A stretch of DNA of 36,330 nucleotides, taken from contig PXRY01000122.1 in NCBI GenBank assembly GCA_003022925.1, forward strand, positions 31,104-67,433, written 5' to 3'. Origin of the DNA: Halobacteriales archaeon QS_8_65_32 (GTDB taxonomy: Archaea > Halobacteriota > Halobacteria > Halobacteriales > Halococcaceae). The notes beneath the pieces are model-generated. The model had not been told where the DNA came from, ran no database searches, and saw only the letters and a list, made by a program, of their open reading frames with translations. A program made the position numbers and the translations under genes. Of this stretch, positions 3,675-25,087 are shown one piece after another. Position 1 is the first letter of the stretch, and the number at the start of each line of letters is the position of its first letter.

Positions 3675-4697
3675 GTGTCTTCGCAGTTCGCCATCTCGGT
3701 TCGTGATCTCGAAAAGGACTACGGGGACGTCCAGGCGCTCCGTAGCCTCTCGCTCGACGTCGGGGCGGGACAGTTCTTCGGCCTGCTCGGGCCCAACGGC
3801 GCGGGCAAGACGACCTTTATCAACGTACTCGTCGGCCTGGTCAATCGGACCGGCGGTGAGGCCCGCGTGTTCGGTGCCGACGTCACCGACGACTATCGGC
3901 AGGTCCGCGACCGGATCGGCATCGCCCCCCAGGAGTTCAACGTCGATCGCTTCTTCCCGACGAAGGAGGTTTTGATGCACAAGGCGGGCTATCACGGCGT
4001 CGATCGAGCGGAAGCTGCCGACCGCGCCGACGAGGTCCTCCGGACGGTCGGCATCTACGAGAAGCGAAACACGAAGTTCACCTACCTCTCGGGCGGGATG
4101 AAACGCCGGTTCGTGCTCGCGCGCGCACTGGTTTCCGAACCCGACCTGCTGATCCTGGACGAACCGACCGCCGGCGTGGACGTCGAGTTACGGCGGGACC
4201 TCTGGCGGATCATCACCGAGTTGAACGACGAGGGGACGACGGTCCTGCTGACGACGCACTACATCGAGGAGGCAGAACAGCTCTGTGACGAAGTCGCCAT
4301 TATGGCCGAGGGCCGTAAGATCGCCGTTGCGAGCCCCGCTGAACTCACCCAGCGGGGCACCGACACCCTCCGGATCCTCCTCGACGAGACGCCGAGCGGA
4401 GTGCCGGATATCGACGAGAGCGGCCTCGAAAACGGCTCGATCGAGGACATCGCCGTCGAGGGTAGAGAGGTCGTCGTGACGGCCAAACGCGCCAACGCGG
4501 TTGCGCCCGAACTCGTCCGCCGCCTCGACCGGGCAGGCTACCAGGCGACGAACTTAGACATCGAACCCGCCTCGCTAGAAGAGGTCTTCGTCGATCTGAC
4601 GAGCCACGACGCAGACGACGCCGACGAGGGCGAGGACGAGAGCGGCGAGACCGATGCGGACGCACAACGGCTCGAATCGCCGGAGGCGACTACATGA
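3675..4697 (+). CDS. ABC-2 type transporter ATP-binding protein
   Basis: A 340-residue ATPase that would drive the exporter permease encoded downstream. Visible motifs are Walker A GPNGAGKT (39-46), the Q-loop region APQEF, signature LSGGM (138-142), Walker B LLILDE (158-163) and the switch His195 (TTHYIEEA). About 100 residues after the nucleotide-binding domain resemble the DUF4162 region found in DrrA-type ATPases, followed by an Asp/Glu-rich tail. DrrA/CcmA-type exporters pump drugs, lipids or polysaccharides; the substrate is not readable here. The start is GTG with a TATA box 28 nt upstream. The TGA stop overlaps an ATG (ATGA at 4694) that opens a mini-ORF leading to the permease. Confidence 0.9.
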   Translation: MSSQFAISVRDLEKDYGDVQALRSLSLDVGAGQFFGLLGPNGAGKTTFINVLVGLVNRTGGEARVFGADVTDDYRQVRDRIGIAPQEFNVDRFFPTKEVLMHKAGYHGVDRAEAADRADEVLRTVGIYEKRNTKFTYLSGGMKRRFVLARALVSEPDLLILDEPTAGVDVELRRDLWRIITELNDEGTTVLLTTHYIEEAEQLCDEVAIMAEGRKIAVASPAELTQRGTDTLRILLDETPSGVPDIDESGLENGSIEDIAVEGREVVVTAKRANAVAPELVRRLDRAGYQATNLDIEPASLEEVFVDLTSHDADDADEGEDESGETDADAQRLESPEATT

Positions 4698-4816
4698 GCA
4701 CGGTCGCAGCGGAGTCCCTCTCTGCCCACACTCACCGCGGTCGTAGCCAAGCTGCTCCCTGCTCTCGTTCGCTCGCTGGTACTTGCTCACGAGAACGCTG
4801 GAGGCGGTTCGCGTGA
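4694..4816 (+). CDS. 40-codon bridging mini-ORF, repeat-derived
   Basis: This short frame begins at the ATG that overlaps the ATPase stop (ATGA, 4694-4697) and ends at a TGA that overlaps the permease GTG (GTGA, 4813-4816). It is therefore linked by start/stop overlap at both ends. Its predicted product (MSTVAAESLSAHTH..., later rich in Arg, Ser and Cys) is basic and unlike a haloarchaeal protein. Much of its DNA matches the intergenic repeat at 24375-24440. I infer that a repeat entered at the old permease start and that the reading frame now serves to carry ribosomes through to the permease. Whether the peptide itself matters is unknown. Confidence 0.5.
   Translation: MSTVAAESLSAHTHRGRSQAAPCSRSLAGTCSRERWRRFA
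4738..4812 (+). repeat. Dispersed repeat, copy 1
   Basis: CGGTCGTAGC, then AGCTGCTCCCTGCTCTCG, CACGAGAAC and GGCGGTTCGC occur here in the same order and spacing as at 24378-24445. CTCTCGTTC and CACGAGAAC face each other as partial inverted arms. The copy ends just before the permease start. Confidence 0.65.
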
Positions 4817-5601
4817 GTGTAGTATCGACCGGTATACGGTCGCTGATGCGCCGCGAGATCCTCCGGTACGTGCGGATGCCTCAGAGCACCTTTTTGCCGC
4901 CGTTGGTGACCAACGCGCTGTTTTTCGTCGTCTTCGGGGTCATCATCGGCGGTCGAATCGACTCATACGGACAGTTCTCCTACATCCTCTTTATTCTCCC
5001 AGGGCTAGTGGTTCTCGGCGTCGTCTCCCAGGGGTTTCAGAACGCTTCGTTTACGATCTTTCACGGCCGATGGGAGGACTACATCGAGGAGATCCAGACT
5101 GCACCGCTGTCCTACGGCGAGATGGTCGTTGCCTACGTCCTAACGAGCGCCCTCAGGGGAATCATCGTCGGGACGTTTATCGGAATCATCGGCGCGGTGT
5201 TCACCCTGCTCGACCCCGAGACGGCGGTCGTGGGAGTTGCCCACCCGTTGTACGTGGTCGCGTTCGTGCTCGTTATCTCGGTACTCTTCTCTGCGCTCGG
5301 CGTCGTCGGCGGGTTGTGGGCGACGACCTTCGACGATCTGGCGGTGATGAATCAGTTCATCATCCAGCCGCTGGTGTTCGTCGGCGCGGTCTTCTACCCG
5401 CTATCGATTCTCGCCCAGCCCTGGCAGACGGTCTCGCTGATCAACCCGATGGTCTACATGGTCGACGGTGTGCGCTACGGCTTTCTCGGCATCTCGGAGA
5501 TCGGCCCCGACCTCTCGCTCGCGGTGCTGACGGTCGCCGCGGTCGTCGCCGTCGCCGTCGACGCCTGGCTGTTCCGACACGGCTACGGCCTAACCGAGTG
5601 A
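4813..5601 (+). CDS. ABC-2 type transporter permease
   Basis: A 262-residue membrane protein of the ABC-2 exporter family, the partner of the ATPase upstream. Six hydrophobic segments are expected. Near the N-terminus RREILRY and PPLVTNALFFVVFG are typical of this family, and in the C-terminal half NQFIIQPLVFVGAVFYPLSIL and INPMVYMVDGVRYGF match the usual ABC-2 signature. I chose GTG 4813 rather than TTG 4783 because the ten extra residues come from repeat DNA and GTG 4813 overlaps the stop of the bridging ORF (GTGA). ATG 4846 is another possible start. Confidence 0.85.
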   Translation: MSVVSTGIRSLMRREILRYVRMPQSTFLPPLVTNALFFVVFGVIIGGRIDSYGQFSYILFILPGLVVLGVVSQGFQNASFTIFHGRWEDYIEEIQTAPLSYGEMVVAYVLTSALRGIIVGTFIGIIGAVFTLLDPETAVVGVAHPLYVVAFVLVISVLFSALGVVGGLWATTFDDLAVMNQFIIQPLVFVGAVFYPLSILAQPWQTVSLINPMVYMVDGVRYGFLGISEIGPDLSLAVLTVAAVVAVAVDAWLFRHGYGLTE

Positions 5602-23235: not shown

Positions 23236-24296
23236 ATCGTGCTTCGCTCCAGCGCGCGCTCGCGATCGGTTTCGGGGGAGCCCTCGCCGTCTTCGTTCTT
23301 CTCGGACTCGTGTTCCCGGGGACGCTCGCGGGCGACTTCCTCGACATCCTGACGAGAGAGAGCACGCTCAGTTCCGCCCTCCGACTGTCGGTACCGATCG
23401 CCTTCGCCGCGCTCGGTGGTATCTTCGCCGAGAAGGCCGGCGTGATCAACATCGGGCTCGAAGGTCTATTGATAATTTCGGCGTTCGTCGGCGTGTTCGC
23501 AACGAGCCTGTTGGGTGCCGGCGGCGAGACGCTCGGGGTTTCGAACGTTTGGGTCGGGTTCGCCTTCGCCGTGCTCGCGAGCACCTTACTGTCGCTTCTG
23601 TTCGCGGTCGTCTGTATCGAGTTCCGGGCCGATCAGATCATCGCCGGCCTCGCAATCTGGCTCATCGCGCTCGGGCTCGCGCCCTTCGTCGCCAGGGTGT
23701 ACTACGGCAGCGTCAACTCCGGGTCGGTCAGTTCGCTTGGCACCTGGGAGATCCCGCTGCTATCCGCTATTCCATACGTCGGAGCCGTCTTTCGCTCCGA
23801 TCCCTCGGTCTATTTTCTCTTAGTCGCCGTGCCGCTGTCGTGGTGGGTGCTCAATCGGACCGCCTTCGGCCGCCACGTCGACGCGAGCGGCGAGAACCCG
23901 CGAGCCCTCGACACCGCCGGCGTGAGCGTCCGGAAGGTACGCTATCAGGGAGTCCTGCTCTCAGGCGTGCTCTCGGGGATCGGCGGGGCGAGCCTGTCGT
24001 TAGGACTCGGTCAGTTCATCGGCACCGGCCAGACGATGGTCAACGGCAAGGGCTTCATCGCGATCGTTGCGTACCTGTTCGGCAACTACAATCCCATCGG
24101 CGCGTTCGGTGCCTCGCTACTGTTCGCCGGCCTCGAAGCGATTCAACTGCGCCTCCAGCAGGTACCCGGCTATACGATCCCCGACTCGCTTATTCAGACG
24201 CTCCCCTTCGTGACGGTGATTGTCGTGCTCGCCCTGGTCGGCCGAACGCGAATCCCACAGGCCGCTGGCGAGTACTACGAGTCCGGTGAGGACTAA
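23232..24296 (+). CDS. Nucleoside ABC importer permease 2
   Basis: A 354-residue membrane permease of the BPD_transp_2 family, similar to the NupQ/YufQ type. Landmarks are the early LRLSVPIAFAALGGIFAEKAGVINIGLEG, the middle INFG-like DQIIAGLAIWLIALGLAPF, and the late GKGFIAIVAYLFGNYNPIGAFGASLLFAG. It starts with GTG at 23232, overlapping the upstream TGA by 4 nt, and is the partner of permease 1. The next gene, cytidine deaminase, begins 350 nt later after a repeat-rich gap. Confidence 0.9.
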   Translation: MNRASLQRALAIGFGGALAVFVLLGLVFPGTLAGDFLDILTRESTLSSALRLSVPIAFAALGGIFAEKAGVINIGLEGLLIISAFVGVFATSLLGAGGETLGVSNVWVGFAFAVLASTLLSLLFAVVCIEFRADQIIAGLAIWLIALGLAPFVARVYYGSVNSGSVSSLGTWEIPLLSAIPYVGAVFRSDPSVYFLLVAVPLSWWVLNRTAFGRHVDASGENPRALDTAGVSVRKVRYQGVLLSGVLSGIGGASLSLGLGQFIGTGQTMVNGKGFIAIVAYLFGNYNPIGAFGASLLFAGLEAIQLRLQQVPGYTIPDSLIQTLPFVTVIVVLALVGRTRIPQAAGEYYESGED

Positions 24297-24369: not shown

Positions 24370-24377
24370 ATCTGCAC

Positions 24378-24445
24378 GGTCGCAGCATAGCTGCTCCCTG
24401 CTCTCGTTCACTTCGTTCACGAGAACTTCGGCGGTTCGCTTGCGC
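24378..24445 (+). repeat. Dispersed repeat, copy 2
   Basis: CGGTCGCAGC, AGCTGCTCCCTGCTCTCG, CACGAGAAC and GGCGGTTCGC appear in the same order as at 4738-4812. Inside it, CTCTCGTTC and CACGAGAAC lie either side of ACTTCGTT as partial inverted arms. The rest of the gap (24446-24615) is C-rich and I see no gene in it. Confidence 0.65.
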
Positions 24446-24646: not shown

Positions 24647-25087
24647 ATGGACGAAGCCGAACTCGTCGAAGCCGCTCGTGAGGCGCTATCGGCAGCGTAC
24701 GTGCCCTATTCGGAGTACCGAGTCGGCGCGGCACTCCTCACCGCCGACGGCACGGTCTTCACCGGCTGCAACATCGAGAACGCGAACTATTCCAATAGCC
24801 TCCACGCCGAGGAGGTTGCGATCGCCGAAGCCGTGAAGGAAGGCCATCACGAGTTCGCCGCGATCGCCGTGAGTTCGGGCGCGCGCGACGGCGTGACGCC
24901 CTGTGGGATGTGTCGCCAGACGCTTGCGGAGTTCTGCGACGAAGCCCTTCCGGTCTACTGCGACGAGGGTCATGACGGCGACGAAACGGATAGCAGCGCG
25001 ACGATCGCCGAGTACGCTCTCGGCGACCTGTTGCCGAACACCATCTCGCTCGACACCTTAGAAACGGCCGAGGAGGAGAGAGGATGA
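24647..25087 (+). CDS. cdd: Cytidine deaminase
   Basis: A 146-residue zinc enzyme that converts cytidine and deoxycytidine to uridine and deoxyuridine. The substrate loop NIENANYSNSLHAEE and the zinc motif H53-A-E55 with PCGMCRQ (Cys86, Cys89) are clear; Glu55 is the proton shuttle. Short CDAs of this length usually carry Cys at the HAE position, whereas His is typical of the long E. coli-like enzymes, so this is a mixed signature. Its stop overlaps the udp start (ATGA), so the uridine it produces would be handed directly to the phosphorylase. Confidence 0.92.
   Translation: MDEAELVEAAREALSAAYVPYSEYRVGAALLTADGTVFTGCNIENANYSNSLHAEEVAIAEAVKEGHHEFAAIAVSSGARDGVTPCGMCRQTLAEFCDEALPVYCDEGHDGDETDSSATIAEYALGDLLPNTISLDTLETAEEERG

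Follow-up and report, generated by a model that had tools for sequence, protein, structure and literature searches.

The ATPase and permease genes of an ABC transporter in Halobacteriales archaeon QS_8_65_32 are separated by an insert of repeat DNA, and a mini-ORF of 40 codons runs across this insert from the stop codon of the first gene to the start codon of the second. The junction lies in a contiguous stretch of 36,330 nucleotides, here called the window, from a genome (G000) assembled in 127 contigs. With a probability of about 80%, we take the mini-ORF inside the insert to preserve the translational coupling of ATPase and permease, and such bridging to be recurrent and selected. The features of the window are listed in Table 1.

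Table 1. Features at the ATPase/permease junction and the dispersed repeat copy, in window coordinates
Feature	Position	Strand	Basis or remark
ABC transporter ATPase, upstream cistron	3675..4697	+	Pfam ABC_tran, E=1.2e-32; permease-adjacent orthologues in 30/30 relatives examined
Shine-Dalgarno-like GGAGG, 7 nt 5' of ATG 4694, within the ATPase gene	4682..4686	+	Sequence
ATGA, ATPase stop overlapping mini-ORF start; site of the ancestral permease start	4694..4697	+	Sequence, orthologue comparison
Bridging (relay) mini-ORF, 40 codons, across the insert	4694..4816	+	Translation, orthologous junctions
Repeat core, first copy, degenerate (CACGGTCGCAGCGGAG-TCCCTCTCTG...)	4698..4737	+	Aligns with second copy; left end common to other bridged junctions
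Repeat core, second copy	4738..4815	+	Aligns with 24377-24442
Predicted hairpin in which the GTGA overlap (with 4787-4790) and some of the Shine-Dalgarno bases are paired	4777..4827	+	Structure prediction
Shine-Dalgarno-like GGAGG, 8 nt 5' of the permease GTG, from the insert	4800..4804	+	Sequence; CGGAGGTGGYTCGC-RTGA recurs at other bridges
GTGA, mini-ORF stop overlapping permease start	4813..4816	+	Sequence
ABC-2 type permease, downstream cistron	4813..5601	+	Pfam ABC2_membrane, E=5.6e-27; N-terminus VSVVSTG homologous to MSVVSTG of insert-free relatives
Dispersed repeat copy, bridging nothing	24377..24442	+	Flanking genes uncoupled: TAA stop at 24294-24296, following gene at 24647

The anatomy of the junction was observed directly. 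The ATPase stop TGA (4695-4697) shares bases with the mini-ORF ATG (4694-4696), and the mini-ORF stop TGA (4814-4816) shares bases with the permease GTG (4813-4815); the coordinates of both overlaps and the 40 codons between them had been given exactly in the initial annotation. A termination-reinitiation pair is defined by a stop/start overlap of 4 or 1 nt, and such an overlap is present at ATGA 4694-4697 as well as at GTGA 4813-4816. The equivalent of the GGAGG at 4682-4686 is CGGAGG or CGGGGG, which precedes the direct overlap in close relatives. The mini-ORF product has 40 amino acids (MSTVAAESLSAHTHRGRSQAAPCSRSLAGTCSRERWRRFA) and gave no match in Pfam. The sequence CGGAGGTGGYTCGC-RTGA (Shine-Dalgarno sequence, fixed spacer and start; 4800-4816 in the window) was also seen upstream of displaced starts across several haloarchaeal families, including junctions whose linkers are unrelated.

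Comparison with relatives, the nearest named ones being the Halobacteriales MAGs QS_3_64_16, QH_8_64_26 and QH_6_64_20, revealed the ancestral state of the junction. Among 30 orthologous ATPase/permease junctions, 22 had a direct stop/start overlap, 2 were nearly adjacent and 6 were gapped, and all 6 gapped ones were bridged. Repeat-free relatives without an overlap at the ATPase stop had been named as the outcome that would speak against a displaced start, but outside the two insert-bearing genera a direct overlap (ATGA, GTGA or TGATG) was found in 22 of 25 relatives, with 2 more nearly adjacent. Therefore, the ATGA overlap is ancestral. Insert-free relatives read ..CGGAGGCCTCGATATGAGCGTCGTCTCGACC.. 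at the overlap, and the permease N-terminus MSVVSTG follows directly (L009, L011 and L012). Since the same N-terminus follows GTG 4813 in the window, the permease gene has been parted from the position of its ancestral start, as the initial annotation had proposed. Its identification of ATG 4694 as the original permease start holds for the position; the codons after this ATG (AGC ACG GTC GCA GCG GAG) form the repeat's left end and are not permease remnants.

At the same spot, the other three genomes of the genus and one from a sister genus carry linkers of 67 to 256 nt, which mostly cannot be aligned with one another. Each is crossed by one mini-ORF or by two joined by GTGA: 17 and 28 codons in G001, 24 codons in G002, 40 and 19 codons in G005 and, in G003, one long frame that contains shorter GTGA-to-GTGA units. 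The sixth gapped junction comes from a more distant genome (G042); it spans 25 nt and is bridged as well. The bridging peptides are wholly different among members of the genus, and their number also varies. In G030, the permease orthologue matched in two pieces on the same strand about 5 kb apart (C1:1288821-1289081 and 1294115-1294642), as if a large insertion intervened.

The window linker had 45 BLAST matches in the same genome, mostly to the repeat core. That the linker consists largely of repeat DNA was thus borne out, with the matching stretch elsewhere in the window refined from 24378-24445 to 24377-24442. As judged by alignment, nearly the whole insert is repeat-derived, since its first 44 nt (4694-4737) carry a degenerate copy of the core, too. 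Lrp/aminotransferase, sucC/sucD and lysX/argC also have the left end of the repeat, RTGARCACGGTCGC (at lysX/argC as RTGAATACGGTCGC). The reading frame of the core is the same at sucC/sucD and lysX/argC but differs from that of the second copy in the window junction. Because the frame varies in this way and because linkers without a recognisable repeat are bridged, too, an open frame is no inherent property of the repeat. Rfam searches returned only tRNAs at the gathering score (9 loci, the window copy included) and no RNA family at the linker or the repeat, and a literature search with the exact repeat-core sequence gave no match. Left-end patterns with 2 mismatches, tried as a repeat finder, were dropped since the hits were mostly noise. 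The dispersed haloarchaeal element (L241-L257 and window 24377-24442) has the core CACGGTCGCAGC-RRA-GCTGCTCCCTG and often lies beside tRNA genes. The arms flanking this core are specific to each copy yet complementary to each other (GCAAA..TTTGC, CGAGA..TCTCG, GGATTTGAA..TTCAAATCC), which suggests palindrome-making insertions; Rfam gave no match.

Further junctions were reached through pattern searches, and orthologues were then fetched for about 30 genomes per junction. At sucC/sucD, 26 junctions were direct and 4 gapped; all 4 were bridged, with no open gap, and the bridge in G002 spans 80 codons. At Lrp/aminotransferase, 16 were direct, 2 nearly adjacent and 12 gapped (11 bridged and 1 open); the bridge consists of three mini-ORFs in G005 and of two in G030, a genome of another family. 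At lysW/lysX, 5 of 14 gapped junctions were bridged under the strict overlap rule and 13 of 14 when the start could lie up to 2 nt after the stop; the bridge in G003 is made of two mini-ORFs. The lysX/argC junction, analysable only in part as ArgC lay at the locus edge in many cases, has a bridge of 20 codons in G000, and this 20-codon unit recurs at Lrp/aminotransferase in G005 and G030. Bridged linkers without a recognisable repeat were found at Lrp/aminotransferase in G000-G003, at the ABC junction in G002 and in several lysW/lysX cases. Unbridged were a gap of 20 nt with a TAA stop at Lrp/aminotransferase in G027 and one lysW/lysX gap, in G037. The suggestion that an open frame rescued coupling across the repeat is thereby supported and at the same time widened, from a single event to a recurrent pattern that includes linkers without a recognisable repeat and two to three chained mini-ORFs. 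In four lysW/lysX cases (G006, G008, G010 and G022), the upstream gene stops with TAA, and one nucleotide further on a TTG or GTG opens a short frame that ends exactly on the lysX ATGA; its peptide ends in RWLA in three of them.

Recurrence above chance was observed directly at four junctions (ATPase/permease, sucC/sucD, lysW/lysX and Lrp/aminotransferase), each of which had been picked after one bridge was seen there. Together, the strict rule gave 26 bridges among 36 gapped cases, and the relaxed rule, which allows the start within 2 nt after the stop and was needed for most lysW/lysX cases, gave 34. In a null model in which linkers were shuffled and length-jittered with fixed ends, 8.0 and 8.6 of 36, respectively, were expected. 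The sample consists of related species, and we therefore grouped similar linkers into clusters as a rough guard against shared ancestry: 18 of 22 clusters were bridged under the strict rule (5.8 expected, P=7e-9) and 21 of 22 under the relaxed rule (6.2 expected, P=5e-13). Without the discovery cases, the values were 13 of 17 (P=2e-6) and 16 of 17 (4.6 expected, P=2e-10); null and cluster counts are approximate, the assemblies being partly fragmented and the gene calls simple. After deletion of 1 to 2 nt in the linkers, only 4 to 5 of 36 remained bridged.

For an unbiased survey, genes were called in about 2 Mb from five genomes and orthologous pairs were compared. Of 15 gapped pairs whose orthologue in another genome overlaps directly, 8 were bridged, compared with 1 of 62 whose orthologues are gapped, too (Fisher p=2.5e-6); with the ABC junction removed, 6 of 13 remained, against all other gapped pairs (p=2e-5 under the strict and p=3e-4 under the relaxed rule). 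Some of the unbridged gaps, which comprise 7 of these 15 and those in G027 and G037, may be gene-call errors or may reflect the gain of a promoter. Genome-wide counts that ignored orthology were only weakly enriched over the phase-shift expectation (13/3.1, 8/3.8, 5/4.1, 9/6.8 and 4/2.7), and many of these bridges are probably due to chance; orthology was used in the survey for this reason. Bridging across haloarchaeal junctions looks like natural selection keeping translational coupling.

How coupling operates has been studied in Haloferax volcanii. An early stop in the upstream gene abolished translation of the downstream gene in 9 of 9 coupled pairs tested (PMC6728339), and reinitiation was lost at a spacing of 22 to 23 nt (PMC10666635). 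The 115-nt insert should therefore silence the permease unless it is bridged. The geometry of the H. volcanii TeRe pairs (ATGA, GTGA or TGATG, with a Shine-Dalgarno sequence in the upstream ORF) matches that of both the ATPase/mini-ORF and the mini-ORF/permease junction; that work dealt with annotated gene pairs in which coupling was gone above a spacing of about 20 nt, and its accessible text does not mention a relay ORF over an insert (PMC6728339, PMC10666635).

From the sequences, we infer that the mini-ORF is translated, that it is necessary and that selection is the cause of bridging. Ancestrally, ATPase and permease would have been translated by termination-reinitiation at the overlapping stop and start (ATGA or GTGA), and repeat DNA would have expanded or inserted exactly at this overlap in the window genus and a sister genus. 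If the ribosomes that start on a downstream haloarchaeal cistron are mainly those that have ended translation immediately before, no more than a few nucleotides away, an insert would survive only if it offers a coupled start of its own, a frame without stops and, at its end, a stop codon that overlaps the start it has displaced. In the window, a ribosome that has completed the ATPase would begin anew at 4694 and read the mini-ORF to its stop at 4814-4816, from where, aided by the GGAGG at 4800, it would enter the permease at GTG 4813. The mini-ORF would thus restore zero-distance coupling on both sides. Since the bridging peptides are not conserved, it is most likely just a path for ribosomes, and the peptide itself is probably without function.

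A single bridge is not improbable. Stop codons are sparse in GC-rich DNA and starts often have RTGA, so that open bridges could arise without selection; the window linker, shuffled and length-jittered with the same ends, is bridged in about 24% of cases, and single linkers in about 24 to 38%. Significance therefore comes from the recurrence across genomes and junctions, and 34 of 36 cases against 8.6 expected, 21 of 22 clusters and the survey (8/15 versus 1/62) leave chance a negligible probability as a general explanation. We consider a functional small protein made from the mini-ORF as part of the transporter operon just as improbable: the mini-ORF does have its own start and Shine-Dalgarno-like sequence, but Pfam yielded no match and the bridging peptides differ entirely between members of the genus, even in number. 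A little less remote, but still improbable, is translation of the permease independently of the mini-ORF, either from the GGAGG 8 nt ahead of GTG 4813 or on a leaderless transcript whose 5' end is near 4813. The majority of transcripts in haloarchaea lack a leader; in H. volcanii, however, Shine-Dalgarno motifs give no de novo initiation (both PMC6728339). Moreover, AT runs in the linker do not exceed 2 nt and nothing TATA-like is present, which makes an internal promoter unlikely, and independent translation leaves the conservation of phase unexplained.

The strongest competitor is a bridge built into the repeat, as in mycobacteria, so that any insertion at RTGA would be bridged automatically and no later selection on the linker would be needed. 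The recurrence of the left end RTGARCACGGTCGC and the right end GGAGGYGGYTCGC-RTGA at unrelated junctions speaks for it, as does the 20-codon unit shared by lysX/argC and Lrp/aminotransferase. It is nevertheless unlikely as the whole explanation, though clearly more credible than the others, because the linkers listed above that have no recognisable repeat are bridged, too, the frame of the core varies by junction and the dispersed copies lack the ends seen at bridged junctions. A built-in bridge and selection can hold together for some cases.

The closest known counterparts are the mycobacterial interspersed repetitive units (MIRUs; Supply et al. 1997, as cited in PMC12548453). MIRUs lie at DTGA overlaps in operons and occur in tandem copies. 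To our knowledge, no sequence relation exists between the haloarchaeal repeat and MIRUs. The arrangement is similar: according to a review from 2025, MIRUs are short dispersed repeats inserted at start codons, with an internal ORF coupled to the downstream gene at -4 nt (PMC12548453). A short repeat that sits on a DTGA overlap and contains a co-oriented ORF, coupled at its 3' end, was found in the window and at L002, L003, L005, L034, L073, L081, L225 and L226, and tandem units at one locus, as two to three chained mini-ORFs, in G001, G005 and G030. Unlike MIRUs, the bridges are haloarchaeal, non-repeat linkers bridge as well, chains reach three mini-ORFs and frames vary. The haloarchaeal bridge is not classed as a MIRU, since host and sequence context differ; the relay appears to be an unrelated archaeal counterpart. 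The repeat ends are alike at unrelated junctions in several genera, and no empty/filled site pair within a species was available among the genomes used. Only tentatively do we suggest that haloarchaea carry a family of mobile relay cistrons, short palindromic units that would insert at operon RTGA overlaps. Each would supply a start and a stop that are both coupled, an uninterrupted frame between them and a strong Shine-Dalgarno sequence; such units would be nearly harmless to the host operon and would be a MIRU counterpart of independent origin.

The proposed relay also resembles uORFs that deliver ribosomes (reviewed in PMC12548453), in that a short ORF would bring the ribosome to the next start codon; it differs in lying between two genes, where it would pass along ribosomes that are already translating the mRNA instead of bringing in new ones. 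A literature search, with most subscription journals outside its coverage, found no report of relay mini-ORFs in haloarchaea; the closest haloarchaeal work is that on directly overlapping pairs.

The four junctions amount to a natural experiment on archaeal translational coupling, in which inserts of about 20 to 260 nt were tolerated almost only if the ribosome can translate across them. They lend evolutionary support, from several haloarchaeal families, to the laboratory limit of about 20 nt for coupling. Bridging accounts for a group of small ORFs that look spurious and lie between the genes of haloarchaeal operons, offers a signature for spotting obligatorily coupled gene pairs and gives an archaeal parallel to mycobacterial MIRUs.

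The hairpin predicted at 4777-4827 was no more stable than shuffled sequence (z = -0.72), and a role for it is speculative. Sequestration of the Shine-Dalgarno sequence by a hairpin was dropped as an explanation: the mean z was -0.65 at bridges versus -0.29 at direct overlaps, and 0.27 for the whole window linker. In many repeat-type bridges, a predicted hairpin pairs the start codon, with arms matching the downstream start. Such arms could sequester start and Shine-Dalgarno sequence until the relay ribosome opens them. Start-complementary arms at the 3' end of the linker were seen in L003, L002, L081, L034 and L225, and the arm ahead of the downstream start changes with that start, being ACACTCA/TGAGTGT before the permease (L003) and GTTCAC/GTGAAC before lysX (L081).
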